Origin: a virus
Virus record (IMG/VR): IMGVR_UViG_3300026257_000018
Location: 1 to 28,823 of that record
Strand: one strand, 5' to 3'
Length of the DNA: 28,823 nucleotides
Shown: piece by piece, positions 6,658 to 28,823 of the stretch
How the letters are laid out: each line of letters opens with the position of its first letter
How positions within the stretch are numbered: the stretch's first letter is position 1
Position numbers and translations under genes: made by a program
The notes under the pieces: model-generated
The model's database searches: none
Told to the model about the DNA's origin: nothing
Seen by the model: only the letters and a program-made list of their open reading frames with translations

Positions 6658-7860
6658 ATGGCAAAAAATGACAACGTCAAAATTGACGAAAAAAATGCTG
6701 AATCCCCTATGGGTGATGGCAAGTTAAAAATGTCTCATCTTAAAAAGTTTCAACAAGATGATAAACCTATTAAGGTAGACCTTGATGAAACAAAAGAAGA
6801 GAAAACTACAGATAAGATTGTAGAAGAGAAACCTAAAGAAACAACTGATGATAAAGTTATTGAAGAGGTTCAAGAGAAAGTGGAAGAGAAAAAGATTGAA
6901 GAGAAAAAAGAAACTGAACAACCGGTTTTGGAAGAAATTACAGACGAAAAAACTGATGAAACTGTTGAACAAAAAATTGAAACAGTTGAAGAAACAGTTA
7001 AAGATGCTGTAGAAGAAGCGGAAAAAACTGGGGAAGAATTACCAGAAAATATTCAAAAAGTTATAGACTTTATGAGTGAAACTGGTGGAGATCTTGAGGA
7101 TTATGTAAAATTAAATCAAGATTATGGTAAACTTGATGACACTATGTTATTAAGAGAATACTATAAACAAACTAAACCGCATCTTAATAGCGGGGAGATT
7201 GATTTTTTAATTGAAGATAATCTCACGTATGATGAGGATGTAGATGATCCGAAAGACATACAGCGAAAGAAATTAGCGTTTAAAGAGCAGGTTGCCGACG
7301 CTAAAACCCACTTAGACGGGTTAAAGTCTAAATACTATGAGGAAATCAAAAGTGGTGTTAAGTTAACATCCGACCAACAGAAAGCTATTGATTTTTTTAA
7401 TAGATATAACGAAAAGCAAGTAGAAACAGAAAAAGTTGCTAAAGAACAAAGAGACGTGTTTCAATCAAAAACGAATCAGGTATTCAATGATAAATTTAAA
7501 GGTTTTGAATATAATATCGGAGAAAAGCGTTTTAGATTTAACGTTAAAGATTCATCACAAGTGAAAGAAAGCCAAAGTGATCTTAGTAATTTTGTTGGTA
7601 AATTCTTAGATAAGAAACAACAATTAGCAGATCCGCAAGGTTATCATAAAAGTTTGTTTACAGCAATGAACGCTGATGCTGTAGCTAATCATTTTTACGA
7701 ACAAGGCAAAGCAGATGCTATCAAGTATAGTGTGGCTAACGCTAAAAATGTAACAACTGAACCTCGACAAGGTCTTGGTGAAGTTGAAGCTGGTGGAATG
7801 AAAGTTAAAGTGTTAAGCGGCGATGATTCTAATGCTTTTAAGTTTAGAATTAAAAAGTAA
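6658..7860 (+). CDS. Probable capsid scaffolding protein
   Basis: A 400-residue protein directly upstream of the major capsid gene, the usual position of scaffold. Residues about 40-130 are an almost purely Glu/Lys/Thr/Asp tract with repeated 'VEEK' and 'EEKK' type units, probably disordered or a charged helix. The middle (about 130-330) is helical and charged (NIQKVIDFMSETGGDLEDY, YEEIKSG). The C-terminus ends GGMKVKVLSGDDSNAFKFRIKK-like, basic and beta-prone, as expected for the part that touches capsid protein. Scaffolds are abundant in the procapsid and lost on maturation. No protease motif is visible here. Its translation leader shares a 21-nt identical stretch with that of the 9451 gene. 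Confidence 0.72.
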   Translation: MAKNDNVKIDEKNAESPMGDGKLKMSHLKKFQQDDKPIKVDLDETKEEKTTDKIVEEKPKETTDDKVIEEVQEKVEEKKIEEKKETEQPVLEEITDEKTDETVEQKIETVEETVKDAVEEAEKTGEELPENIQKVIDFMSETGGDLEDYVKLNQDYGKLDDTMLLREYYKQTKPHLNSGEIDFLIEDNLTYDEDVDDPKDIQRKKLAFKEQVADAKTHLDGLKSKYYEEIKSGVKLTSDQQKAIDFFNRYNEKQVETEKVAKEQRDVFQSKTNQVFNDKFKGFEYNIGEKRFRFNVKDSSQVKESQSDLSNFVGKFLDKKQQLADPQGYHKSLFTAMNADAVANHFYEQGKADAIKYSVANAKNVTTEPRQGLGEVEAGGMKVKVLSGDDSNAFKFRIKK

Positions 7861-12204: not shown

Positions 12205-15200
12205 ATGCCAGAGTTAAATAAAGTATTTTCCGGAGGTGCTATGAATAAGGATCTTGATGAGAGACTTATACCACAGGGTTTTTATAGAGACGCGCAAAAC
12301 ATAGAGATACTTACATCCGAAGGATCTAACGTGGGTTCTGTACAAAATATTTTAGGCAATCAAGAAAGAAAATTAAAAACATCCCCAACAACAGAATGGT
12401 CTTCAGGTTATATTAGTAATTTAACTAATCCAGAATGTATCGGTAGTATCGCAGATACAGAAAATAATAAAATATATTGGTTTATAGCAACATCTGATAA
12501 AAGTGTTAGTGCTATAGCAGAATACAACGTAACAACTAAAGTTGTTTCTCCGGTTTTAGTAGACAAAAATAATATCCTCAATTTTAGTTCTAATTATCTA
12601 ATAACAGGTGTTAATGTCATTGATGGTTTGTTGTTTTGGACTGATAACCAAACTGAACCAAAGAAGGTTAATATAGCTCAATGTAAAGAATTTCATCAAA
12701 ATCCTGATAATAACGCAGATAATTTTACCACGCACACACAAATAAATGATGTTTTAGATAATGATGAAGATTTTAAAGAAGAGCATATAACAGTTATAAA
12801 GCAATCACCACTTAAAGCCCCAACATTAACACAATCTGCAACAAAATCAGATGGTGGAGTTGGCATAGCAGCTAATCCAGTTGATACATCAAAAGATTTT
12901 TCTGATGGTGGCTCAACAAATGTATTTAAAGCGGGTAGATTAACAACAATAAATGTTGATTTTTATCCAAACGCCTGGTCAAAAGGTGATATTATAAAAA
13001 TTTCTAGATTAGCTGTGATAGATCAAATAAAAATTGAACTTTCTATTAGAGCAACTGTTTTAGGTATAAGAACAGGGACTACATTTAACTATTTTGTGGA
13101 TATAAGAATCATATCTATTGATGATAGAATCGGAACAGGAGCGGAAACATGGGAATGTGTTTTGGAGGAAGATGATCCATTATATAAATTAAAATTTGTT
13201 AGATTTGCTTATAGATATAAATATAATGACAGTGAATATTCTTGTTTTTCTCCTTTCTCTGACACAGCTTTTGTCCCTGGTACTTTTGATTATAGACCTC
13301 ATCTTGGTAGCAATTTAGGTATGGAGAATATTCTTAGAGAATTAACGTTAACATTTCCTGATTTGGTTTTAGATCGATCTCCCAACAATGTAGAATCGGT
13401 GGATATATTATATAAAGAATCCAATAATAATAACGTTAGAATAGTTACTACTTTAAAACCAACTAATAATATAGATGTAGATGACGTTAATTTTGGTAAA
13501 GATGAATTCGATACAACATTTACAATTACAAGAGAAATATTAAAATCACTCGTAGAATCAAACCAACTACTAAGACCATGGGATAATGTGCCTAGAAAAG
13601 CTAAAGCACAAGAGCTTGTTGGTAATAGAGTAATTTATGGTAATTATATAGAAAATTATGATGTTGATAAAGATCCTGAAATTATAGCAGATCAACTATC
13701 AGTAGATGTTATTGAATCCCAAACTTTTATTTCAGATGGTGGTACTCGTAAATTTACATTAAGCCCTGATGTATTTACTGAGTTTCCTATACAAGGCACT
13801 GATATTCTGGTTTATCTAGATGATAGTCTAGAAACTTTTGAGGATTTACCAAGAGGTGTTATATCAAATGATCCCTCGTTAGGTACATATGTGTTTTTCA
13901 CGGGTGATATACCTGGGGCAGGATCTTTACGAATAGAGTATGATAGAAGAAATCGAGGTCATAAATCTGTAAAGTCACAAAGGACATACCAACTAGGTGT
14001 TGTATACCAAGATAAATACGGCAGACAATCTCCTGTGTTCACGAGCCAGCGTGCTTCTGTGTTTATAGAAAAACAAGCAAGTGCAACAATAAATAAGCTT
14101 ATAGGTAATATATCTACAAATGCACCAGGTTGGGCAACACATTATAAGTGGTTTATAAAAGAAGGTACCAATGAGTACTATAATTTAGTTTTAGATACTT
14201 TTTATGCAGCGGAAGATGGTAACGTGTGGCTTACATTTCCATCATCTGAAGTTAATAAAATATTAATTGGAGATTATATTGAATTAAAAAAGCAACATAA
14301 CGCAGAGATAGTTGTGAGTGAATCAGCAAAATTTAAAGTTATCGATATATCACTTGAACCACCTCCGTATGTTGAGTTTGAGCATGACCAATTGCATAAA
14401 GAAACTGTAACAAGATATGCCACTTCTCTAGGGAGTGTTGGTCTACCAACATATCAATTCTCTGGGCCTACGAATTCCGAAGAATTAAGTAAACATATGT
14501 CTCCGGCAATGAAAAGTATTAGATTTACAGCGGGAACTGGTGTAGATGCTAAGGTGTCAGGATGGTATGAAATTATAGATTCGAGTGTCTCAGCCACCAA
14601 CGCTAATAAGAATAGTTGGGAATTTACATTTGATCGTCCTATCTCACCTGATGATGTATTTCTTGAAAACGCAACACAACTCAATATTGAGCTAAGAAAA
14701 AAAGAACCAAGAAGAGGTGCTCATTTATCTGGTAAATTTTGGGTTAAAGTACTTGATGGTTTAGAATTTCAAAGATATATTAGAGAGCCATCACCAACTG
14801 GAGGTGCTGGTTACCAAGCGCATATGTCTTTACCAGAGCGTAACTCTCAAGGTATACAAGAGAGGATAGATAATATAGATCAAAATAAACCCCAATTATC
14901 ATGGAGGTTAAATGCTGGTAATAATCTTGAAACATGGACATCAAATAAACCTAGCAATATACAAAACGATCCTATAAATCTTACTTCCAATAAAAAAAAT
15001 ACACACCCTGAACTAAACAACCAATACTTTGGTTTAACACTAACAGGGTTTCGTTGGAATGAAAGTATCTCAGGAAAACCAACAGGCGGCTGGAGCGACA
15101 GTCAAATAGAGAGTGCAATAGAGGAAGCGCTTAGTCAACTTCAAGGTAAGGATTTCGCGGCAATGTTACATATCCAAGTAGGATCGGTAATACGTTTTTC

Positions 15201-18200
15201 TGATGAAACTGGAAAAAACTATAGTGAATTATATGAAGTTTTACCACATAGTGATTTTTATGAATATAGAAATTATTGGGATAATGCAACAATTTCACAG
15301 GGACCTTATTATTTTACAAGGGTATGGAAAATAGGTTTGTTGCATGAGAACACCGAGGGATATCAAGCAACAGAATTTACACACGTAGATGGTTCTGTTG
15401 GTGATAAACCAGCAACAAGGATTGAAATAATGATGAAAGTTGATGAACCAGATATTACCACTATGCGTGTAAAATCACCTGCTATATTTGAAACTGAACC
15501 ACGTGATATTGCTGATTTAGATTTATACCATGAGATTTCTGATGCAATAGGTATTATTAAAGCATCCCCAACAACAAACTACGCGTTGCGAAGCAAAACA
15601 GGTACCACAAGTTTTACAAAAGATGTACCAAAAGTTATTAATGCGAATAATGAAGAAAACACTATAACACTAGATATTACAGTAAATGATATCGATCAAA
15701 ATGAAACTTTAACGTTTATTGATTTAAATACAGGTTTTACGAGTGATATTATAACATCAACACTTAATGACACTGAGTTTTCTGGGTCAAACACTATTAT
15801 ACACGTTGGAACCGGTGGTCACGTTGGAACAGATATATTATCTTGGTCTAATTGTTTTACATTTGGAAACGGTGTTGAGTCAAATAGAATAAGAGACGAT
15901 TATAATCAAGTATTTCTAGACAAGGGACCTAAAGTTTCTACAATACTTGAACGTTCTTTTAAAGAGGAACATAAAAAAGCAAGTTTAATATACTCAGGTA
16001 TATATATTAACAAAAACGGTATTAATGGTAGCAATCAATTTATACAAGGAGAAAAAATTACAAAAAATTTAAATCCTGAATATGGATCAATACAAAAACT
16101 TAATACGAGAGATAGTGATTTAACCGCGTGTTGTGAAGATAAAATTATAAATATAGTTGCTAATAAAGATGCTTTATTTAATGCTGATGGAAATCCTCAG
16201 TTAATATCTAGTACAAATGTGCTTGGTCAAGCTATACCTTACGTCGGTGAACATGGTATTAGTAAAAATCCAGAATCATTTGTTTCTCATGCTTATAGAT
16301 CATATTTTACTGATAGTGCGCGAGGAACAGTTTTAAGATTGTCTAGAGACGGCTTAACCGATATTGGTAGTAAGGGTATGGGAGATTACTTTGGAGACAA
16401 CTTAAAAACGTCTACATCGTTAATGGGTAGTTATAATGAAGATAAAGATGAGTATATACTTACATTAAAAAAAGCAACCGATGAATCAATAGCTTTTTCA
16501 GAGACTGCAGGTCAAGGTGGTGGATGGACAAGTTTTAGATCATATATTCCAGAAAGTGGTGTTGGTATTGATAGTATATATTATACATTTAAAAATGGTT
16601 TAATATATTCTCATGATAATACCACTAGAAATACGTTTTATGGTGGATCAGCAGTTGAATCGAGTATTAATGTTATGTTTAACGAAGCAAGTGAAACTAT
16701 AAAAAGTTTTAAAACGATAGCGTACGAGGGAACACAACAAAGAAAATACAGATATGAAGGTACTATTAATAGTGTTACATACGGCGATAATGATAATTTA
16801 TCTTTAGCGAGGTTAATAGAATTAACACCAACGTCTACAGAGCTTAACGCATTGACGTCAGAAGAAAGACAAGCAGGTTGGTATTTAGATTCAATTACCA
16901 CAGATCTACAAACTGGTAGTATACAGGAATTTGTTGGTAAAGAAAATAAATACTACAACCATTTAAGGGGTGATTCATTAGATGATACTAATTTAGATTC
17001 ATCTGAAATCTCTGTTCAAGGTATAGGTAAAGCACACGCCGTAGCAGATGCTGGTGGTCAAACAACCGCGGAAGTTAATGTTATAATAAAGGGTTTAAAT
17101 GTTAATGAGTTATCTATAAGTGGTACACCTACAGGTTATTCTACAAATAGTACTAATGATGAATTTACAAAAACTTTCACCACCTCAACTGCATTAAACA
17201 CAATTACAATAGATATTAATTTAGATCCTAATGATGGGTATTCCTTACCAACATCACTTACTATTAGTGGTAACGCAACGGCATCATCATATAATTCAAC
17301 CACTGGTACTGTTACTTTAACGTTGACAACAAGTGGTACTGTAACAACAAGTGGTCATACAGAAACAATTACTATTACATCACCTAGTATTTTAAATAAA
17401 AATAATGTTGCTGGTGAGTATATAGTTCAAGGTAGTAATATAGTACTACCAAAAGACATTGGCACAACGAAATCTTATAGCGCTACGGGTTATGAAGCGA
17501 ATACATCAGTGGTGGTAGATGCGTTTCAATGTTTATCAGCAGTTTCTGCTAATGTATTTGGAAAAGTAGTTAATGGTTCATACGTAGAACCAACAGCAGG
17601 GGATTTATTAACCGTTGATACAAAAAACGATATCAATGGAAGATACAAACTTATTATGTCACAAAAAAATTATAACTCAAATGGTCAATTAGTTGCCTTT
17701 TATGCTGCTGTTGAGTACACATTTGGTAGTGAATCCACTATAACAGATGATGAAATTACTATAAACTTACCAACAGTAAATACGATAGATGAAATTATAA
17801 ACCCAAAAATCACAAGGATAGAATTAGGTAAACTTGTTGGTGGGAAATTTGTTCTTGATAATTCAACTGTAGGTCACAATGGCGCAAATGATATAAGATA
17901 TTTTAAAGTTTCTGGGAATCCTGGTGCTAAATTTGGTATTACAAGAAGATCCCCAGGTCCTGCGCTTGGTTGGAAATTAAATGGTGCTAATAGTGATATT
18001 GCAGCTGATGCTCTTACTATACCAGATGATCAAAACTTTTTACTTGTTAAAGTTGAATGTGGTGATAGAAGTGCGCAAATGGAATTAGCAGACACAGGAT
18101 TTTTTGTTAATAGTACTTATTTAAAAGATGATTTTTATGAAATATCTTCTGTATCACCAACAGAGCATATACAGATAGACCAACATGGTTGGTCGAAATT

Positions 18201-19086
18201 AAAACTTGCTATTACAAGTAGTAATTATGGTGGTAGTGGTAGTGGTATAGGAACAGATTATACTGTGTATGAAGATGTTAGTAGAGAATTTTTAACAAAT
18301 TCCACTGATTCAGCTTTTGATGATGATACTGCTATTACAGCTAAAGTAATTACAGCAGAAGCAGAAACACGTAAAGTAATTACCAATCCTTCAAGCCCAA
18401 CAAAATTTATTCCTTTTAAATATGTATTTGATCATGGCGCTAGTGCAGATGATACATTAAATAGAAGTGCTAGTGAAACAATAGGTAGTGGACTAGATTT
18501 TTCTCACACAGGTAACGGTGGGGCAAATGATGATGATGGTTTTGATATTACAATAAGTAATTTAACAACAACATTAACTGAGGGATCTGGTGGTAATGCT
18601 ACTAAATTAACAGTGATGGGGTTAGCAACCGTCAATCAATATGGTGATGGTTCATCAACTCCTAGTAGTGGTTATAATATTTTAAATTTCAACCCAGACG
18701 CATTAATAACAAAAGGTAGTGGCGTTTCTAGTTTATATGTTAATTTATTTGGCGCAGCTGGTGGTAATATAGCAACAACCACAAGTAGAGGGGATATACC
18801 AGTTACTATAAACATAGGCACGTCAGATGGAACAAATTACACAGGTACAGTTACATTTGTACCTTTAGCTTCTTTCTTTAATGGTAAAACAACTAGTCAA
18901 ATAACAATAAGCTACACGCTTGATGGTTTTACAAATAACGGATCCGCAACAAATCCTAGCGGTTGGACAGGAGCATATACAGGTGGCACAGCAACTATAG
19001 CTATAAACGTAAACCTTGATAATGCGAGTGGTGGTAACTTAATAGCTGGTGATGCGCCGTTAACGATTCAATATAGTGCAAGTTAA
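12205..19086 (+). CDS. Tail muzzle (stabilisation) protein with long C-terminal extension
   Basis: A 2293-residue protein that probably forms the distal part of the short tail. The start MPELNKVFSGGAMNKDLDER fits the muzzle family. The core runs to about residue 1610 and holds the signature region CCEDKIINIVANKDALFNADG (about 1309-1330), then GEHGISKNPESF and YFTDSARGTVLRLSRDGL (about 1367-1384), which I recognise from crAss-like stabilisation/muzzle proteins. A beta module around residues 505-590 resembles that of the upstream ring protein. From about 1615 the protein changes to Ser, Thr, Gly and Asn-rich repeats resembling Ig-like adhesion domains, adding about 680 residues. This tail may contact the host surface. 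There is no frameshift. The core call is solid; the adhesin role of the extension is inference. Confidence 0.82.
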   Translation: MPELNKVFSGGAMNKDLDERLIPQGFYRDAQNIEILTSEGSNVGSVQNILGNQERKLKTSPTTEWSSGYISNLTNPECIGSIADTENNKIYWFIATSDKSVSAIAEYNVTTKVVSPVLVDKNNILNFSSNYLITGVNVIDGLLFWTDNQTEPKKVNIAQCKEFHQNPDNNADNFTTHTQINDVLDNDEDFKEEHITVIKQSPLKAPTLTQSATKSDGGVGIAANPVDTSKDFSDGGSTNVFKAGRLTTINVDFYPNAWSKGDIIKISRLAVIDQIKIELSIRATVLGIRTGTTFNYFVDIRIISIDDRIGTGAETWECVLEEDDPLYKLKFVRFAYRYKYNDSEYSCFSPFSDTAFVPGTFDYRPHLGSNLGMENILRELTLTFPDLVLDRSPNNVESVDILYKESNNNNVRIVTTLKPTNNIDVDDVNFGKDEFDTTFTITREILKSLVESNQLLRPWDNVPRKAKAQELVGNRVIYGNYIENYDVDKDPEIIADQLSVDVIESQTFISDGGTRKFTLSPDVFTEFPIQGTDILVYLDDSLETFEDLPRGVISNDPSLGTYVFFTGDIPGAGSLRIEYDRRNRGHKSVKSQRTYQLGVVYQDKYGRQSPVFTSQRASVFIEKQASATINKLIGNISTNAPGWATHYKWFIKEGTNEYYNLVLDTFYAAEDGNVWLTFPSSEVNKILIGDYIELKKQHNAEIVVSESAKFKVIDISLEPPPYVEFEHDQLHKETVTRYATSLGSVGLPTYQFSGPTNSEELSKHMSPAMKSIRFTAGTGVDAKVSGWYEIIDSSVSATNANKNSWEFTFDRPISPDDVFLENATQLNIELRKKEPRRGAHLSGKFWVKVLDGLEFQRYIREPSPTGGAGYQAHMSLPERNSQGIQERIDNIDQNKPQLSWRLNAGNNLETWTSNKPSNIQNDPINLTSNKKNTHPELNNQYFGLTLTGFRWNESISGKPTGGWSDSQIESAIEEALSQLQGKDFAAMLHIQVGSVIRFSDETGKNYSELYEVLPHSDFYEYRNYWDNATISQGPYYFTRVWKIGLLHENTEGYQATEFTHVDGSVGDKPATRIEIMMKVDEPDITTMRVKSPAIFETEPRDIADLDLYHEISDAIGIIKASPTTNYALRSKTGTTSFTKDVPKVINANNEENTITLDITVNDIDQNETLTFIDLNTGFTSDIITSTLNDTEFSGSNTIIHVGTGGHVGTDILSWSNCFTFGNGVESNRIRDDYNQVFLDKGPKVSTILERSFKEEHKKASLIYSGIYINKNGINGSNQFIQGEKITKNLNPEYGSIQKLNTRDSDLTACCEDKIINIVANKDALFNADGNPQLISSTNVLGQAIPYVGEHGISKNPESFVSHAYRSYFTDSARGTVLRLSRDGLTDIGSKGMGDYFGDNLKTSTSLMGSYNEDKDEYILTLKKATDESIAFSETAGQGGGWTSFRSYIPESGVGIDSIYYTFKNGLIYSHDNTTRNTFYGGSAVESSINVMFNEASETIKSFKTIAYEGTQQRKYRYEGTINSVTYGDNDNLSLARLIELTPTSTELNALTSEERQAGWYLDSITTDLQTGSIQEFVGKENKYYNHLRGDSLDDTNLDSSEISVQGIGKAHAVADAGGQTTAEVNVIIKGLNVNELSISGTPTGYSTNSTNDEFTKTFTTSTALNTITIDINLDPNDGYSLPTSLTISGNATASSYNSTTGTVTLTLTTSGTVTTSGHTETITITSPSILNKNNVAGEYIVQGSNIVLPKDIGTTKSYSATGYEANTSVVVDAFQCLSAVSANVFGKVVNGSYVEPTAGDLLTVDTKNDINGRYKLIMSQKNYNSNGQLVAFYAAVEYTFGSESTITDDEITINLPTVNTIDEIINPKITRIELGKLVGGKFVLDNSTVGHNGANDIRYFKVSGNPGAKFGITRRSPGPALGWKLNGANSDIAADALTIPDDQNFLLVKVECGDRSAQMELADTGFFVNSTYLKDDFYEISSVSPTEHIQIDQHGWSKLKLAITSSNYGGSGSGIGTDYTVYEDVSREFLTNSTDSAFDDDTAITAKVITAEAETRKVITNPSSPTKFIPFKYVFDHGASADDTLNRSASETIGSGLDFSHTGNGGANDDDGFDITISNLTTTLTEGSGGNATKLTVMGLATVNQYGDGSSTPSSGYNILNFNPDALITKGSGVSSLYVNLFGAAGGNIATTTSRGDIPVTINIGTSDGTNYTGTVTFVPLASFFNGKTTSQITISYTLDGFTNNGSATNPSGWTGAYTGGTATIAINVNLDNASGGNLIAGDAPLTIQYSAS

Positions 19087-19474: not shown

Positions 19475-20305
19475 ATGGAAGAATTATTATTATTAATAAA
19501 TCCTATTATAGATTTTCTAACAAATAATCCAGAAGGAGTAACGTTAGCATATTTTGGCCTTGGAGGAGGGGGTACATCAAGTCAAGGTGGATGGACGTTT
19601 ACAAATCAACCATACCAAGGAACAACAAGCGGAACAAGCGGAACAACCGGTACAAGTTCTCTTGTAGATAGATTTAAAGCTATGGATCCTGCCTTGCAAA
19701 CTCATATGGCATCGAGTGTAGGTAGTGGTGTAGCAGGTTTATTTCAAGGTATTTTTGAAATGGGTGATGCAAGACAGCGTGTAACAGATACCAAAAAAGA
19801 ATACAAAGCACGAAAATTAGCTTTAGGTGGAGTTGATACATCCAATCCATTTGCAAGAATAAGAAATCCATATGCAAATCTTGAAGTAAACAAACAGCAG
19901 GCTGAATTTCAAGTACAACGAGGTCAACAAGCTTTAGTTGATACAATGTCGCAAATGCGTGGAGCGACAGGCGGTAGTGGTGTTGCAGCGTTAGCACAAG
20001 CGATGGCCAATCAACAATTAGGAAATATACAACAAATATCAGCGAATATAGGTCAACAAGAATCTGAAAACACAAGACTGAGAGCAACGGGTGCTATGGA
20101 AGCACAAACATTAAGAGGTCAAGGGAAACTTCAATCTGCTGAATTAACAGGAGCTAAGCAAAGTGTGTTATTGGATTATGCTGTAAAAGAATATCAAGCT
20201 GCAGAAAAATACAAATCAGAATTAACAGGTGCTGTGGCAGGAGGTGTTGGTAGCATGGCAAGCGCAATGTTTACTGGCGGTATGGGTGGACTATTCACGC
20301 CATAA
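19475..20305 (+). CDS. Probable internal virion (cargo/ejection) protein
   Basis: A 276-residue protein. Residues 1-30 are hydrophobic and amphipathic (LLLLINPIIDFL), then a Gly/Thr/Ser linker (about 30-62) built on a 9-nt tandem repeat. Residues about 65-235 are helical and rich in Gln and Ala (KQQAEFQVQRGQQALVDTMSQM, QQLGNIQQISANIGQQ). The C-terminus is a glycine-rich hydrophobic tract (AVAGGVGSMASAMFTGG). This profile (helical, Ala/Gln/Gly-rich, small hydrophobic ends) is that of short podoviral ejection proteins such as T7 gp14, and comparable proteins lie in this position in crAss-like genomes as cargo. The leader is A-rich with no Shine-Dalgarno box. Role inferred. Confidence 0.7.
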   Translation: MEELLLLINPIIDFLTNNPEGVTLAYFGLGGGGTSSQGGWTFTNQPYQGTTSGTSGTTGTSSLVDRFKAMDPALQTHMASSVGSGVAGLFQGIFEMGDARQRVTDTKKEYKARKLALGGVDTSNPFARIRNPYANLEVNKQQAEFQVQRGQQALVDTMSQMRGATGGSGVAALAQAMANQQLGNIQQISANIGQQESENTRLRATGAMEAQTLRGQGKLQSAELTGAKQSVLLDYAVKEYQAAEKYKSELTGAVAGGVGSMASAMFTGGMGGLFTP

Positions 20306-20332: not shown

Positions 20333-22432
20333 ATGGGATTTACAGGAACAAAATTAGAAACAATAGGACCGGTTTTTGTCGATTGGGCAAAATCGTTTGA
20401 GAAGGGATTTGATACAAAAGCAGCTGAGGACTATTTGAAGCTAAAAAATGATCAGTATATTTTAGATCGACAGTCAAAACCTGAGATACCAGAAACACCA
20501 CTAGATGGACTCAACGATAACGGGGCGTTAACAACTAGATTCACAGACATGCGAGCAAGGTATGATGAGTTGGCTGATATACGTAAGAAATATCCAAGCG
20601 CAAGAGATAAACATATTGATGCTACCAAAGAGATGAATAACATTATAAAAGAGATGAATAATGTTGAGGAAGTATTCGGATTAATAGAGACGGCATCTTT
20701 AGAGCATGCTGCGGATCCCACTCAGTTCCCTGGTGATATGATGATGGGACCAAGTGTAGAACATGAAATATATTTAGATATAGTTAATGGAAATTTTGGT
20801 GAGGGTAGTGAAATATCAAAGATTGAATTTGAAGATAATACAATAAAATTTGTTTCAAGGTCTACTGGCGAGAAGTACGCGTGGACAGATTTAAGAAAAC
20901 CCGAGGGAAATCCAAAGTTGATTGATGCATTTGATAATAAATTACTAGATCCAGATAGTGGTCTAGTTGCAAAAGCTATAGCGGGAGACGCAGAAAAAGT
21001 TAACAGCCTGGGAGCTGAAGTTCAACATACAATAAGGGAAATCGGACGTACAAGTTATAATGATTTATTTCCTCTACTTATGGGGCAGCATTTTACCCAT
21101 TTTACTGTAGAAGGAAAAGATGGACGCCAAGGAACCCCTGATGATTTAAAATCATTTCAGGTAAGCGCTACTGATAGTGATTTATATGCACAATATTTCA
21201 AGAACACATTTTCTAATTGGGATGAATTTATTAGTATAGATACCAATGGAGGAGTTACACCACTAAAGAAAGAAGTTGATTGGAAAAAGTGGGCAAATCC
21301 TAAATATGCAGCAAGAATGGGATTAAAATTAGAAGAAGGTAAAAATGCTAGTTTTATAAAAAGTCAGGTTACAGATTTTTTAACAGAGTATTGGGGTAAC
21401 AATGTAACACAAATGGCAAGAGCCGCAGAAGTCATGAAGAACAAAAAGGATCAAGAAGAAAAAAATATCATAAAAGATCCTTTAAATTTGAATAGAACGG
21501 GACTCAACTCTAATGAATACACTAGAAGAAGAAAAATTGTCGCGGGCGAGGGATTCTTACAAAATGTTCAAACAGAAGCAGAGGAAATATTTAGAAATAA
21601 ATATCCAGATCTAACATTCGATGTAGATAGCCCTGAATTTAAAAAAGAATTTGGTGAGGTGTTTGTTAGTAAAATAAATAGTTTTAATGTAGCAAATAGA
21701 AAATATGATCCAAAAAGAATATTCACTTCTGTTAGTGATGCTAGGTTATCAGCGTTTCGTCTTATGGATGCAGAGACAGTAGAAAACATGATTAAGAGAA
21801 ATTATAAAAACTATGAGAGCAATGTAAACTATATAAACTTCAGCGAAATACTAGCAGCTGAAGACGGTATACCTGTTGATAACAAACTTGAAGCAGGAAT
21901 TAACAACTTAGTTGATAGATTTATTGGGATACAGGATTTAGCTAAAAATCAAGAAATAAAAAAAGTGGGACACTATGTAGGCAGTGATAACAGATATAAA
22001 GCCGGAGTTCGAATTGTTATGAATGAAGGTAACGAACTTAAAGAAATTGCAAACTCTCTTAATATAAATCTTGAGGGTTTAAAGTCATGGAAAGCTTTAA
22101 CAGAGACAACATACACGGGAGATGCACTTAAACAAAATCAGGAAAAAATAAAAAACCAATTTAAGGAGGTTGTCAAAGAATTAAGAACGGCTTTCTGGCA
22201 AGAAAGAATGTCAAGGGATGTAGCGTATAAAAACCCTGATATGATATTAACATATGATGATGATGGTGTAACACAATTCCAAGGTATATCTATATTTGGT
22301 GGCAGAGGATTAGAAGTTGATGAAATATCAGGTAAAAATGTATTAAATCTAGGATTTATGGGAGGTATTCAACTCGATGCTTATGGTCAAGATATAATGG
22401 ATGAAAGATATTTTCTTCATTTAACTAATTAA
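20333..22432 (+). CDS. Probable internal virion/cargo protein, 699 aa
   Basis: A 699-residue, mostly helical and highly charged soluble protein. It starts MGFTGTKLETIGPVF, has coiled-coil-prone runs near residues 75-115 (MRARYDELADIRKKY, MNNIIKEMNNVEEVF), and a long helical middle with MARAAEVMKNKKDQEEKN and EEIFRNKYPDLTFDVD. It ends in a beta-prone segment and HLTN. No enzymatic motif is visible. It is sandwiched between the small cargo candidate and the giant multidomain gene, which follows after 7 nt, so it is probably co-packaged or forms part of the ejection apparatus. I cannot name it from the sequence. Confidence 0.7.
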   Translation: MGFTGTKLETIGPVFVDWAKSFEKGFDTKAAEDYLKLKNDQYILDRQSKPEIPETPLDGLNDNGALTTRFTDMRARYDELADIRKKYPSARDKHIDATKEMNNIIKEMNNVEEVFGLIETASLEHAADPTQFPGDMMMGPSVEHEIYLDIVNGNFGEGSEISKIEFEDNTIKFVSRSTGEKYAWTDLRKPEGNPKLIDAFDNKLLDPDSGLVAKAIAGDAEKVNSLGAEVQHTIREIGRTSYNDLFPLLMGQHFTHFTVEGKDGRQGTPDDLKSFQVSATDSDLYAQYFKNTFSNWDEFISIDTNGGVTPLKKEVDWKKWANPKYAARMGLKLEEGKNASFIKSQVTDFLTEYWGNNVTQMARAAEVMKNKKDQEEKNIIKDPLNLNRTGLNSNEYTRRRKIVAGEGFLQNVQTEAEEIFRNKYPDLTFDVDSPEFKKEFGEVFVSKINSFNVANRKYDPKRIFTSVSDARLSAFRLMDAETVENMIKRNYKNYESNVNYINFSEILAAEDGIPVDNKLEAGINNLVDRFIGIQDLAKNQEIKKVGHYVGSDNRYKAGVRIVMNEGNELKEIANSLNINLEGLKSWKALTETTYTGDALKQNQEKIKNQFKEVVKELRTAFWQERMSRDVAYKNPDMILTYDDDGVTQFQGISIFGGRGLEVDEISGKNVLNLGFMGGIQLDAYGQDIMDERYFLHLTN

Positions 22433-22439
22433 AAATCCT

Positions 22440-25400
22440 ATGTTAACACTCGAAAACGTTTATAAGCTTTTAATACAACAAGGTAAAATAAGTGGTAGTT
22501 TTGAAAATTTCCACAAAAGCTATAAGTCTAATGTTAACTTCCAACAAACAATTAACTCTATGATTAAAAATCTAGGTTTACTAGATTCTGACTTACCTAA
22601 AGAGGCTGTTAGTCCACAATCTCAAACTCAAACTCAAACATCTGGTTTTCCTAAGCAAAGAGGCATCTGGGTTGACACTGACCAATCAGTGGAAACAGAA
22701 AACTGGTTAGATAAAATACCTATTATAGGTGATTTTTTATCTGATATGGTAAAGTATACAGTTGGTGGCGCTAAGGCTGGTATGACTGCCGATGAAAGCG
22801 TTGCTCTTATGAAAAGAGTTTTTGGTGATCAGAAAGCAACAGATGAAGAGGTATTGCGATACATTGAAGCATATAATGAAATGGCAGATCCAACGACCGT
22901 GACAGATGAAATGCAAGAATATCAAAGAATATACGAAGAAGAAGGTAAGGGTGTTTGGGGTGTTGTAAAAGGATTAACACATAATCCATCTGTTATGCTT
23001 GGTTTATTTCTCCAGTCAATGTCCACGCAGGTCGCTGCGGCTGGTTCATCAAAAGAAGTCGCAGGAGCAGGAGCAGCTTTTGCTAGTATAGGTGCAGGGG
23101 TTGGTGCTAAGTTTGGTGGTATCGGTGCTATTCCAGGTGCTATAGCGGGGGCTATGGGTGGTATTGCTACAGGTATGGAAGCAGCATTAACATTTGGTGA
23201 ATTATTAAAAGAAGAAGCAGGTGAAGGGAATTTTACACTTGAGGGTGTAAGAGCAGTACTTAACGATCCGGAAAAAGCTGATAGTTTTGTTAATAAGGCT
23301 TTACAAAGAGGTTTGACTATAGGTATGATAGAAACACTTACCGGTGGTATAGCGGGTAAAGCAACGAAAGTAATTAGTAGATCTAGAGGAATGGGATTAG
23401 GAACAGCAGCTGGTTTAACAACTGAAGCAGTTGGTGGTAGTGTTGGTGAAACAGCTGGTATGTTAGCAGCTGGCCAGGAACTTGATACATCAGAAATACT
23501 TCTTGAAGGTATAATAGGTAAAGGAAACAGTATGGTTAATGTTCTTGCTAATTTATCTCAACCTGGAAAGTATACAATCAACGGCGAGGCATATGATAGT
23601 GCAGGTAAATTTGTAGAAAAATTAAACTTAATGAACAACGAGACATTAAGAAAAGCAAAAATTAATGTTGAAAATAATGATGTTGTAGAGAACTTAGTAA
23701 ATAAAAAGAGACAACAAGCTTTATACGACTTAGCGATAGGTAAAGAAGTTACCAATATAAAAGATAGAAAAGAAATTATAAAATTAGAAGAAGAGTACGC
23801 TAAAGTAAAAGACCAAACAAGTGTAGCGGGTAACATAAAAGCAACTGAATTAAGAAACAAAATTAAAGATATTTTAAACAAATACAAAGGCGGTGAAACT
23901 ACCGTTAAATCGGTTATCAAGCAAGGTGCATACATAAGAAAGGTCTCTAATCTTGAAAATAATCTAGCTAAAACAAAAGCGTTTGCAAAAATTCTTGGTG
24001 TTGACTATAAGTCAATGTCAAACGATGAGTACGTAAATTTTATAAGTGAATATAATTCTAAACACAAAACAAATTTTGACATAGAAGGTGAGGGTCAAAT
24101 ACTTCAGGACAATACAACAAACAAACAGGTGATAGTTATAAATAAAGACGTAGCACAACAAAGTGATCAGTTCACCGTTGGTCAACATGAACTACTACAT
24201 GCACTACTTCACTCAACATTAAAAAATAACGACGCAACAGCCATTAAACTAGGACAAGAGCTAGAGAAACATTTAGATAAAATTAACCTAAAAACAGTAA
24301 AAGATAGTAAGTTTAAAGCAAGGTTAGCAGCATACAAACAAGCTGCAAAAGATGGAAGAATAAAAGAAGCTGACAGGTGGGAAGAAGTGTTAACACTAAC
24401 GTCAGAAGCTATGGCTAATAACGAGTTAAAATATGATCAAACCGCTATGGATAAAATAGCAGACGTGTTAAGACAGTTTTTGAGAAAACATTTTAACGTT
24501 AACATAAAACTTAATGAAGCTGAAGATGTTTTTAATTTTATTAAAGACTACAATAAAAGTTTTGATGAAGGTAATTTATATAAATCATTTGGTAGAATGT
24601 CCACTAAAGGATTACAAGGTAAGTTAATACAAGAACCGGTATTACAAATAACTCAAAATATTATTAATAAAAATAAAATTGGTGATTATAATATTGACGA
24701 CACAACTAGAAAAGAAATTGTAAATGGTTTTGAGGAAAGTTTGGGTGTTGAAGAAGCTGTGCGGGAAGCTGTGCCTTATTTTATACCTAAAATAGAGGCG
24801 GTTGTTGCAAGAGACAGAGATTATACCCTGACAGATTTAACAGCAAGAGAGATTCAGGAAGAGAAGAGCGATATAATACAACAAACGTTATATAATTTAA
24901 TATTGCATGGTAATACATTTGATAGAGCTAAATTTCCAAATCAAGATTTTGATGCATACCTAAACTCATATATTACGAAAAAATTTGGATCCGCGGTTAA
25001 AAAAGTACAAAGAAAAGAAACAAAAATAACTCCGGCTCAGCAAAGAAAATCCGAAAGAATAATTAGCGAAAGCACAACTGAAACCGTAGCAGGAGGTATA
25101 ACTGATAAGTATGTACTTGATAAGACCACACAAGCAAAATTAACCGAAGCTGTTAATGAAAATGTACAGCGCGCTTTAAAACAAATAGTGGTAGGTAGAA
25201 AACCCCGTCAAGTAAAACTTGATATACATAATAAATTTAGAAAAGAAGCTATAGCAAAAGATATAAAAAATACTATAAAAGATAGAAAAACCTACAAAAA
25301 GCATTTAGAAAATAATCTTGAAGAATTTTACAACGAAGTTCCAATATCAGTATTAACTAAAAGATTCAGGCCAGATGAAGAAACAGCAAAAAAATACAAT

Positions 25401-28400
25401 GAAGATCCTGATTTATTTGTTAAACCTGCTATCAACCCAGAGACAGGTGTACAATATAGAATAACAAAAACAAACACATCCCAACCTGGTGTATGGGCAA
25501 AAAACGATTGGAATGATATTAAAGAGCGTGCGATAGCATGGCATTTATCGTGGACAGATAAAAATGGAAAAGTTCATGATTTACCAGCTAATTTACTTGG
25601 TACTAGAAAAGACAAACACGTTCAAGAAATATCTAGTTTATTTGGTATGAAGGCGGCAAATATAATCACATCATCACCTGAATTTGTCGATTCAGTAAAT
25701 GATTGGGTTGAATTTTCTGAATTAAAAGCTGATGAAATTATAGAACACACAAATAATGTTACTAATATTAGATCTAAATTAAAATTCAGTCTAAACACGT
25801 TTACTAATCATGGTAAACCCGTGTTAAAAGATTTCTTCTTGCATGGTTGGGCTGACCCAGAAACATATAACAATTTTAAACAAACTATAATTAATAGAGT
25901 TCCAAAAGAAGAGCGTGAGAGTTTTATAGAATGGTTAGATGATCAAGAAGCAACAGTTGTACCTCTTGATGTAGATGGTTGGTCAAGGAAACAAGAGAGT
26001 TGGTTGAAAGAAAATGATATAGACGCACACGACCTTTATAAAAAAGATATTGGAGGTAAAAATCCAAATGGTATAGCTAGAAAACAACTTGAAACAGGTA
26101 TTATAAATCTTGTAAAGAAAATGGATCCAACGATGTTAAATATAATATCGCAACTTGGTGACAGCGCACAACTTAGTTTCTTTGGTTGGGAAGCACATAA
26201 TCTTTCAAAACAAGATGGTAAAGGTATGAAAAAGGGAGATCAAGACTCTATAAATATACTAAATGCTATAAAAGATAGAATCAATGAGAAGGAAGTGGAT
26301 CCAGATTTTCAAGATTTAGGTGTTGAGATTCTTGACGAAGAGGGAAATATAAAACCTAATATATTAAATGAAATTCAAAATGTTCAGGGTGGGAAATTAT
26401 ATGGTGATATCTGGAATGTTTTATTTACCAAAGATACAAACAAAAAAGAAAAACTCACAGAGCTAAAATCAAGAATGATACTTGCTAATAATTTAAATGA
26501 AAAATTATTTAAGTACGTTAATAAAAAATTAGCAGATTTAAATACAAGTAAAAATCCTATAGACAGGGTTGCTGTTCTTAGAATATATAAAGGAACACAA
26601 AACGCAACAAGTGGTTTTCATAGAATGTTTGCCAAGTTTAAACACGTGGAGGTTTATGAAGGCGTATCACAAGCTCCATGGGTCAGTATAAGTAAGACTG
26701 ATAAAAGTAATATAAAGTATATAGCTAGTAAACCTAAAGAACCTTCAAAAACGCGAATTTATAAACCAAATACTAGCCATCCATTATATAAAGAAGCAAA
26801 GGTTTTATCTGATGATTTTAACAAAAAAAATGCTAAAGAAATAGCTAAGGGAAAAATGGAGGCAGCGGTGCCAACCAGTTTCCTAAAAAAATATACAGAA
26901 CATTTAAAAGAGAATGTTTTTATGTTAGATAATACTTATGATTTAGCAAAAGAACAAAGAAAAGAGGAAAAAGACTCAAAAGAATATTACGATAAATTAA
27001 GCGAAGCTTTTTCAGAATACGATTCTAGCTTGAATTCACATGTTACTACTCTTGATATGGATAACGCTGACATTAAGGGGAAAAAGAAACGCGCTAGAAC
27101 AATGGGTATAGGTGATAAAAAATTATATTATATTGAATCTGGAAAAATGAAAAATATATTTGATGTTGTCGAAGGTAAACCATCAGTTGAAAGTATAGTT
27201 GATAAACTGATGCTTCAAACGGAACTTGATAATTTAAAGGTAGTAAAACCAGTTACCGATAAAACTTCAAAACTTAAAATAAATATTAATGAGGAATTAA
27301 AAAAATTTAAAAACTACGATAAAGCTATAGAAATGGCAAATCGTATTAATCCACCTAAAAAGGGTGCTAGCTTTATTGATTTTGATGATACATTAGCAAC
27401 AACAAAAAGTAAAATTAAATATACAATACCTAGAAGATTACCTGATGGAAGATTTAACTGGCATGTAGTCGGGTGGGGAGCAAGACCGGATAAAGGATCT
27501 TTAACACCAGCGGAATTTGCTGAACAACATGATAAGTTAAAAGCAATGGGTGCTAAGTTTGATTACTCAGAATTTAACGAGGTAAAAGGTGGAAAGAAAG
27601 GACCATTCTTTGATAAAGCAAAAGCATTAAAAGATAAGTTTGGCAACAGTGATATCTTTATAGTTACAGCAAGGCCAGCAGCAGCAGCCCCAGCAATAGC
27701 ATCATTCTTAAGGGGTGTTGGGTTAAATATAAAAGAAGAGAATATAATTGGATTAGAAGATGGTAGACCTGAAGCGAAAGCAGAAGTTATCGTTGATAAA
27801 GCAGCTTTAGGTTATAATAATTTCTTATTTGCTGATGATCAAATAAAAAACGTCGAAGCAGTGGATCAAGTGCTTAATTCCTTAGATGTTGAAGGAAAAA
27901 CTTACCAAGTACAGCAAAAATTTAAATTAAATTTAGATAAAGAATTTAATAAGATAATACAAGAAAATACAGGGTTAGATCTTAACGCTAAGTTTTCTGA
28001 AGCCGCAGCTAAACAAAGAGGTGCCATGAAAAATAAGTTCTGGAAAAGATTATTTATCCCACCTAATGCTGAAGATTTTATGGGGCTATTATATCACATG
28101 ATTGGTAAAGGTAAAATAGGTGAACGACAAAAAGCTTTCCTTAAGAAAGCGTTAATTGATCCGTTTGCCAAAGCAACCACAAGGATGAATAATGCAAAGC
28201 AAAGAATTTCTAATGAATACGATAAACTTAGAAAGCAATTTCCTAATGTTAAAAAGAGATTATTAAAAGCAACTGATTATAATAATTTTACGTTCGATCA
28301 AGCTATAAGAGTATATATCATGAATAAAAATGGTATTGAAATACCAGGTTTATCTAAAAGAGACACGTCTGCTTTATTAAAAATTGTTAAATCCGATCCT

Positions 28401-28823
28401 GAATTAATTGCGTATGGGGATAGTGTATCAAAAATTTCGCGTCTCGATGAAGGTTATATAACACCAAAAGATACGTCTTGGTTAGCCGGTACTATAGAAA
28501 GTGACTTAAGAAACGTAAATGTACAAGAGAATAGAGGCAAATATCTTAAAGAGTGGATTGAAAATAAAAATATAATATTTTCAAAGAAGAACTTAAATAA
28601 AATAGAAGCTACATATGGTAGTAATTTCAGAGAAGCTATGGAGGATATACTGGTAAGAATGGAAACTGGTATTAACAGAAAAACTGGTAAAAATAGATTA
28701 GTCAATGAGTTTACTGACTGGATAAATAATTCTGTTGGGGCTGTTATGTTTTTAAATAGAAAATCAGCTATACTACAAACTATATCTTTTGCAAACTTTA
28801 TAAACTGGACGGATAATAACCCT
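22440..28823 (+). CDS. Giant multidomain virion protein (partial, runs off the right edge)
   Basis: An unbroken frame of 2128 codons without a stop before the window ends. In order: a short helical N-terminus with an F.NFHKSYKSN..FQ pattern; a Gln/Thr linker; a glycine-rich hydrophobic tract (about 190-350, e.g. GAGAAFASIGAGVGAKFGG); helical segments; HELLH at 583-587 with possible third ligands E649 or E656, suggesting a zinc metallopeptidase; a long helical middle of unknown role; a HAD phosphohydrolase domain with D1647-F-D1649-D-T1651, T1743-A-R-P, K1787 and F1797-A-D-D1800; and a conserved-looking helical block from about 1850 (AEDFMGLLYHMIGKGKIGE, NNSVGAVMFLNRKSA). Such 'polyvalent' giant proteins are known virion cargo in marine phages. 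Start ATG 22440 is the first after the previous stop, with TTTAACTAA 12 nt upstream. Injected role is inferred. Confidence 0.8.
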   Translation, partial: MLTLENVYKLLIQQGKISGSFENFHKSYKSNVNFQQTINSMIKNLGLLDSDLPKEAVSPQSQTQTQTSGFPKQRGIWVDTDQSVETENWLDKIPIIGDFLSDMVKYTVGGAKAGMTADESVALMKRVFGDQKATDEEVLRYIEAYNEMADPTTVTDEMQEYQRIYEEEGKGVWGVVKGLTHNPSVMLGLFLQSMSTQVAAAGSSKEVAGAGAAFASIGAGVGAKFGGIGAIPGAIAGAMGGIATGMEAALTFGELLKEEAGEGNFTLEGVRAVLNDPEKADSFVNKALQRGLTIGMIETLTGGIAGKATKVISRSRGMGLGTAAGLTTEAVGGSVGETAGMLAAGQELDTSEILLEGIIGKGNSMVNVLANLSQPGKYTINGEAYDSAGKFVEKLNLMNNETLRKAKINVENNDVVENLVNKKRQQALYDLAIGKEVTNIKDRKEIIKLEEEYAKVKDQTSVAGNIKATELRNKIKDILNKYKGGETTVKSVIKQGAYIRKVSNLENNLAKTKAFAKILGVDYKSMSNDEYVNFISEYNSKHKTNFDIEGEGQILQDNTTNKQVIVINKDVAQQSDQFTVGQHELLHALLHSTLKNNDATAIKLGQELEKHLDKINLKTVKDSKFKARLAAYKQAAKDGRIKEADRWEEVLTLTSEAMANNELKYDQTAMDKIADVLRQFLRKHFNVNIKLNEAEDVFNFIKDYNKSFDEGNLYKSFGRMSTKGLQGKLIQEPVLQITQNIINKNKIGDYNIDDTTRKEIVNGFEESLGVEEAVREAVPYFIPKIEAVVARDRDYTLTDLTAREIQEEKSDIIQQTLYNLILHGNTFDRAKFPNQDFDAYLNSYITKKFGSAVKKVQRKETKITPAQQRKSERIISESTTETVAGGITDKYVLDKTTQAKLTEAVNENVQRALKQIVVGRKPRQVKLDIHNKFRKEAIAKDIKNTIKDRKTYKKHLENNLEEFYNEVPISVLTKRFRPDEETAKKYNEDPDLFVKPAINPETGVQYRITKTNTSQPGVWAKNDWNDIKERAIAWHLSWTDKNGKVHDLPANLLGTRKDKHVQEISSLFGMKAANIITSSPEFVDSVNDWVEFSELKADEIIEHTNNVTNIRSKLKFSLNTFTNHGKPVLKDFFLHGWADPETYNNFKQTIINRVPKEERESFIEWLDDQEATVVPLDVDGWSRKQESWLKENDIDAHDLYKKDIGGKNPNGIARKQLETGIINLVKKMDPTMLNIISQLGDSAQLSFFGWEAHNLSKQDGKGMKKGDQDSINILNAIKDRINEKEVDPDFQDLGVEILDEEGNIKPNILNEIQNVQGGKLYGDIWNVLFTKDTNKKEKLTELKSRMILANNLNEKLFKYVNKKLADLNTSKNPIDRVAVLRIYKGTQNATSGFHRMFAKFKHVEVYEGVSQAPWVSISKTDKSNIKYIASKPKEPSKTRIYKPNTSHPLYKEAKVLSDDFNKKNAKEIAKGKMEAAVPTSFLKKYTEHLKENVFMLDNTYDLAKEQRKEEKDSKEYYDKLSEAFSEYDSSLNSHVTTLDMDNADIKGKKKRARTMGIGDKKLYYIESGKMKNIFDVVEGKPSVESIVDKLMLQTELDNLKVVKPVTDKTSKLKININEELKKFKNYDKAIEMANRINPPKKGASFIDFDDTLATTKSKIKYTIPRRLPDGRFNWHVVGWGARPDKGSLTPAEFAEQHDKLKAMGAKFDYSEFNEVKGGKKGPFFDKAKALKDKFGNSDIFIVTARPAAAAPAIASFLRGVGLNIKEENIIGLEDGRPEAKAEVIVDKAALGYNNFLFADDQIKNVEAVDQVLNSLDVEGKTYQVQQKFKLNLDKEFNKIIQENTGLDLNAKFSEAAAKQRGAMKNKFWKRLFIPPNAEDFMGLLYHMIGKGKIGERQKAFLKKALIDPFAKATTRMNNAKQRISNEYDKLRKQFPNVKKRLLKATDYNNFTFDQAIRVYIMNKNGIEIPGLSKRDTSALLKIVKSDPELIAYGDSVSKISRLDEGYITPKDTSWLAGTIESDLRNVNVQENRGKYLKEWIENKNIIFSKKNLNKIEATYGSNFREAMEDILVRMETGINRKTGKNRLVNEFTDWINNSVGAVMFLNRKSAILQTISFANFINWTDNNP

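Follow-up and report, generated by a model that had tools for sequence, protein, structure and literature searches.

The IMG/VR virus record IMGVR_UViG_3300026257_000018, a stretch of 28,823 bp that was analysed as a whole and is here called the window, ends within a giant reading frame, which raises the question of what protein this frame encodes and where that protein acts. The terminase, portal, capsid and neck proteins of the window match those of Cellulophaga, Flavobacterium, Tenacibaculum and Maribacter phages, and the source is a marine short-tailed Bacteroidetes phage; podoviral morphology has been described for its cultured relatives Calle and Gundel (PMC8776804). Taken as a whole, the data are best explained by a polyvalent protein that is carried in the virion and probably ejected, a reading that appears reasonably probable. 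What the analysis shows directly is the frame, the conserved domains within it, their mosaic arrangement across the family and the synteny with virion genes verified by mass spectrometry.

The frame opens with an ATG 8 bp past the preceding stop codon and stays open to the last base of the window. With stops expected in 8.7% of codons at the base composition of the open reading frame (ORF), the chance of such an open stretch is ~2e-84, the other five frames contain 52-324 stops, and the GC (guanine-cytosine) content at the three codon positions (45/32/20%) has the strong skew typical of coding DNA. The window being the entire virus record, the full length was estimated from relatives: the three closest ones (L002, L003 and L004) extend 367-371 amino acids (aa) past the window end in the alignment, and the complete protein is therefore estimated at ~2,495 aa. 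An artefact of sequencing or assembly might be suspected where a contig ends within the frame, but more than 100 contigs have the same uninterrupted arrangement and the explanation, refuted by these relatives, retains a negligible probability. Since the relatives come from many metagenomes and carry the same single frame, and since L004, 56-61% identical along the frame, has no internal stops, the frame is evidently genuine. The original prediction of an unbroken frame from 22440 to the window edge, belonging to a gene larger than the window, is thus borne out, and the frameshift or assembly error that it had named as a hazard is excluded. The features of the frame are the following.

22440..28823, plus strand: 5′ part (2128 codons) of the putative giant virion-protein gene, with ~370 codons estimated past the contig end
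22722..23888, plus strand: N-terminal domain (aa 95-483), found in 27 of the 114 giants compared, including that of MW202828.1, and matching phrog_32588
23091-23174, plus strand: GxxxG glycine-zipper segment (aa 218-245) within the N-terminal domain
24024..24578, plus strand: predicted zincin-like metallopeptidase (aa 529-713), with HELLH at nucleotides (nt) 24186-24200
24621..25229, plus strand: sigma-70 region-2-like domain (aa 728-930), with a confident core at about aa 748-852 (nt 24681-24995)
25251..27158, plus strand: middle region (aa 938-1573), with conservation confined to the window and its four closest giants
27288..27878, plus strand: predicted HAD-superfamily phosphatase (aa 1617-1813), with motifs DFDDT, TAR, K and DD
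27882..28823, plus strand: first half (311 of 671 positions) of a C-terminal module, from aa 1815, predicted to be all-helical

The HELLH of the peptidase lies at aa 583 and is followed by a conserved glutamate, the third ligand, at about nt 24384-24386; the domain is found in 103 of 108 giants and the HExxH is kept in all 103. The window's own match to Pfam M78 falls below the cut-off, and PDB profile searches yielded nothing useful for this domain, for the C-terminal module or for the 276-aa protein encoded two genes upstream of the giant. In the N-terminal domain no segment reaches the classical hydropathy cut-off for a transmembrane helix. The peptidase permits an alternative that overlaps with the best explanation, namely that it is a maturation protease which trims the giant and perhaps the prohead before or during packaging, and that the host receives only part of the fragments, perhaps lacking the sigma-like one. 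Auto-processing has been proposed for the zincin domains of polyvalent proteins, and the phage P1 DdrB is cleaved before packaging, whereas the virion RNA polymerase of N4, although it too has such a domain, enters the particle unprocessed (PMC5512222); maturation of this kind is a possible course of events, if not the favoured one.

The HAD domain is present in 94 of 108 giants, and its motifs I-IV are all invariant among 23 aligned relatives. The top PDB matches of its profile are polynucleotide kinase-phosphatases (PNKP), albeit weak ones (E 0.23), and in five relatives (L006, L029, L094, L123 and L130) a P-loop kinase of the AAA_33/Zeta type is inserted into the HAD domain at the same site, beginning 34-37 residues past the DxD; in the L006 giant this kinase-in-phosphatase fusion is located at aa 2090-2438. 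In two further relatives (L086 and L101) the kinase occurs in a giant that has no HAD domain, and in L027 it lies at another place. The likeness to polynucleotide kinase 3′-phosphatase has its bounds, as the window protein has no kinase insert, kinase and phosphatase are joined in one protein only in relatives, and there the kinase lies inside the HAD domain and not beside it. A role of the HAD domain in healing nucleic-acid ends is nevertheless plausible.

The C-terminal module of ~670 aa is common to 125 ORFs and matches no Pfam family. Searched against phage records it gave weak matches only, the best of them (E 0.01, 23% identity) in the human faecal phage MT836673.1 at 6741-7406, so that judged from sequence the module may reach into gut phages. 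The giants differ at their C-termini: those of L009, L012, L014, L028 and L029 end in a zinc-knuckle-like Cys/His tail (C...GxRC...C-Y-x-H-Q/D), and the window's closest relatives have a lysine-rich C-terminal tail instead.

Around this module the family is a mosaic. The giant protein was found in 32 IMG/VR loci, and a profile search with the C-terminal module reaches at least 569 loci in IMG/VR, the best 80 of which were retained; 12 further loci lie in metagenome-assembled genomes (MAGs) labelled Flavobacteriaceae, Crocinitomicaceae, Cryomorphaceae, Bacteroidetes and others, and L001, L034 and L035 were excluded as duplicates of other loci. The odd labels among these MAGs are Maricaulis, Aliivibrio and Woesearchaeota, and the contigs assigned to them that carry the giant gene (L128-L130, L132-L134, L137 and L138) are probably misbinned contigs of Bacteroidetes phages. 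In complete relatives the giant is a single frame, 2190-4058 aa long. The HAD domain is absent in some relatives, a kinase or a DNA methylase is present in others, and the C-terminal module is constant; in a set of 40 relatives DNA methylase and Zeta/AAA_33 kinase domains were found, as was LPD14 in four, the last having no counterpart in the window protein. Weak Pfam matches of the window to Cas_APE2256, ERG2 and GvpG were rejected as chance. As tblastn against 50,697 phage records found no convincing relative, whether the query was the entire window protein, the N-terminal part or the middle, cultured phages were linked to the giant by profile and synteny. The analysis confirms the glycine-zipper domain, the HExxH...E peptidase, the HAD domain and the shared module, which in the original prediction had been a glycine-rich hydrophobic region, an HELLH motif, a complete HAD motif set and a conserved C-terminal block. 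Its picture of a single multitool chain with membrane-active, peptidase-like and phosphatase-like segments therefore stands, with wide conservation added, but it had missed the mosaicism of the family, the HAD-fused kinase of relatives and the sigma-70 region-2-like domain.

The sigma-like domain adjoins the peptidase on its C-terminal side in nearly every protein that has it. The first lead was a weak Pfam match in L004 (0.01), from which an iterated search gathered 15 and then ~58 members, placing the domain in over half of the relatives; reversed and locally shuffled control proteins gave no match. Five members individually match Pfam Sigma70_r2, the best at 6e-6 to 7e-6, and the 2406-aa giant frame of L050 exceeds the curated Sigma70_r2 cut-off (28.8 vs 24 bits). 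A profile built from five sequences of the window's clade retrieves L050 (2e-8) and L104 (2e-7), and the best PDB match of the family profile is the sigma factor 8b3z (6e-5), below which weaker matches to RpoS, FliA and SigA1 are mixed with unrelated chains. A four-sequence profile found nothing, the signal coming once divergent relatives were added; the window's own sequence alone does not reach PF04542 and its membership is found at the family level, by way of L004, which is 50% identical over the domain. The AlphaFold2 (AF2) model of the window's own segment has a core with a predicted local distance difference test (pLDDT) score of 84-96, and the first 20 rows of a Foldseek search with this model are all sigma factors. 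Each match is weak, but together they indicate that the domain after the peptidase is homologous to sigma-70 region 2.

A separate sigma-70-type factor of ~250-260 aa is encoded by 14 of 17 related contigs (L139-L153, e.g. L140), ten of these factors being above the Pfam cut-off, with region-2 and region-4 signatures recognisable by eye. As most relatives encode such a factor, steering of the host polymerase is part of their strategy. A stand-alone sigma factor is unusual for phages of ~65 kb. An origin of the sigma-like domain as a copy of this stand-alone factor was rejected, there being no specific similarity. A T7-type RNA polymerase was not found in the relatives in a search that had no positive control. 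In jumbo phages, stand-alone genes for sigma factors have been described (PMC7824862), and the literature searched, which was covered in part, contains no report of a virion-borne sigma domain.

The case for a place in the virion comes from the neighbouring genes. The gene order of the window parallels gp90-gp101 of Cellulophaga phage phi40:1 and that of Elemovirus, and the giant, encoded among portal, terminase and virion genes, is the last gene of the structural operon, in the slot of phi40:1 gp101. For the last three structural genes of phi40:1 (gp99, gp100 and gp101) the structural annotation is based on experimental tandem mass spectrometry (MS/MS). Two genes of the window fill the preceding slots.

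19475..20305, plus strand: gene of a 276-aa virion protein homologous to phi40:1 gp99 (MS/MS-detected)
20333..22432, plus strand: 699-aa gene between the 276-aa gene and the giant, in the same slot as phi40:1 gp100 (MS/MS-detected)

The match of the 276-aa protein to gp99 (6e-20) comes from an iterated profile into which gp99 itself was taken up, the entry threshold being 1e-4 or better. The protein has homologues in 108 loci, the majority of them encoded one gene upstream of the giant, and in the window its gene stands two genes before the giant. Sequences similar to the 699-aa gene were found only in L004, L043 and L045 (and duplicate loci), and in relatives the slot is occupied. For the giant itself the connection to the MS/MS-detected gp101 is indirect: the peptidase of the window recurs in elemoE gp18 (HHalign 96%, E ~2e-9), which has a different segment in common with gp101 (BLAST 1e-9), and the N-terminal domain of the window recurs in the MW202828.1 giant (HHalign 99.9%). 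These links run through different domains, and thus support a common mosaic class and slot and not one-to-one homology. By analogy with phi40:1 there are strong grounds to infer that the giant is packaged in the virion; its injection and action on the host, as proposed in the original prediction, are inferred, and that prediction is supported in part.

The same location could also mean that the giant is a purely structural protein of the internal core or tail, whose peptidase, HAD and sigma-like folds are decayed assembly scaffolds, inactive in the host. The gene does lie in a structural operon, its slot-mate in phi40:1 is annotated as structural, and the sigma-like domain comes without region 4; but an HExxH kept in every peptidase and HAD catalytic residues that are invariant in the aligned set speak against decayed scaffolds, and domains that come and go between relatives fit effectors better, which leaves a purely structural role unlikely.

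Several points weigh against a virion-carried, ejected effector as well. The MS/MS evidence is from phi40:1, which is outside the window phage and its close relatives, and between the giant and phi40:1 gp101 no direct homology and no shared domain were detected. The peptidase, HAD and sigma activities are predicted from sequence, and the AF2 model of the C-terminal module is a low-confidence helical one (pLDDT 61) with no fold match. As to the sigma-like domain, each of the sigma rows in the Foldseek search is insignificant alone (E 0.2-1.1), a profile from which the window's clade was left out recovers L004, L045 and L003 and not the window or L002 directly, and neither the 40 relatives nor the window have a Pfam match to Sigma70_r3 or r4. 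With no region 4, the domain of the window is not classed as a complete sigma factor.

If the giant is nevertheless a virion-carried effector, its action might proceed as follows. As the third and last member of a triad of internal proteins (276 aa, 699 aa and ~2,500 aa) it would be packaged in the particle and ejected along with the DNA at infection, and its glycine-zipper N-terminal part may help to cross or line the host membrane. The HExxH peptidase would cut the long chain into parts, by analogy with other polyvalent proteins, or cut a host target. In the most speculative step, the sigma-like domain would bind the clamp of the host RNA polymerase and either help to start early transcription of the phage or displace the host sigma. 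Nucleic-acid ends or a nucleotide may be healed or remodelled by the HAD phosphatase, which in some relatives is joined to a polynucleotide- or zeta-kinase-like domain. The C-terminal ~670 aa could be a packaging or anchoring module, as they are the one part that hardly varies.

For the sigma-like step a specific scheme can be put forward, rather doubtful as it stands, in which the virion-borne domain, releasable by the adjoining protease, seizes the host RNA polymerase as the DNA enters and the phage's second, complete sigma factor takes over later. A variant of the best explanation, possible and not far short of even, is that the domain shuts host transcription off, as an RNA-polymerase decoy or a competitor of sigma. 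It would suit a domain that has no region 4 found and of which the one part that can be recognised is region 2, with the main clamp-binding surface, in phages whose relatives have a separate sigma factor for promoter choice; nothing specific speaks against it, although region 2 also holds the elements for recognition and melting of the −10 sequence.

Among known systems, polyvalent proteins are the right class in kind for the giant. They are likewise very large, combine several unrelated domains with a zincin-like hub and are encoded with virion genes, and some of the giant's relatives have their LPD14, DNA methylase and Zeta/AAA_33 kinase domains; in contrast, the main text of the survey (PMC5512222) mentions neither 'sigma' nor a phosphatase or polynucleotide kinase, and the giant's ~670-aa module has no Pfam family. 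Within the operon slot, phi40:1 gp101 (1691 aa; Pervagoviridae) is likewise the last structural gene, after homologues of the terminase, portal, capsid, tail and 276-aa proteins, but no peptidase, HAD, sigma-like domain or C-terminal module was found in it. The Flavobacterium phage elemoE gp18 (3694 aa) and the MW202828.1 giant (3859 aa) occupy the same slot and share the peptidase and the N-terminal domain, respectively, but have no detectable HAD, sigma-like domain or C-terminal module. The virion RNA polymerases of the N4/DEV type (3,398 aa in DEV; PMC10925440) are similar in outline, being giant virion proteins, zincin-bearing in N4, that start early transcription (PMC5512222), whereas no RNA polymerase domain was found in the giant, whose sigma-like domain would recruit the host enzyme instead. 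In relatives of the window the order of the triad is conserved, and the 276-aa family has no match to a solved T7 internal protein. The arrangement resembles the T7 ejection proteins gp14, gp15 and gp16, which are encoded by three consecutive internal-protein genes with the largest last, but the likeness is one of position and size, as no sequence similarity and no lytic transglycosylase domain were found.

Two neighbouring genes of the window are noted in addition. A 110-aa gene at 19096-19428 matches the C-terminal ~100 aa of large tail proteins, phi40:1 gp97 and that of elemoE, which suggests that the tail gene 12205-19086 was split at its end or that a domain moved there. A gene for a phage GroES-like co-chaperonin, at 730-1380, immediately precedes that of the terminase.

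Phages need to start transcription before any gene of their own is expressed, and the known virion-borne solutions are whole RNA polymerases, as in N4 and jumbo phages, or modifiers such as T4 Alt. The sigma-like domain is the surprising element that raises the giant above a routine giant phage protein, and, if the reading is true, a sigma-like domain carried in the virion would take the place of a packaged whole RNA polymerase and thereby be a third solution, in an abundant group of marine phages (at least 569 IMG/VR loci). With its enzymes exchanged around a C-terminal module that stays constant, the family also offers an inventory of the activities that phages may bring into the host on entry.

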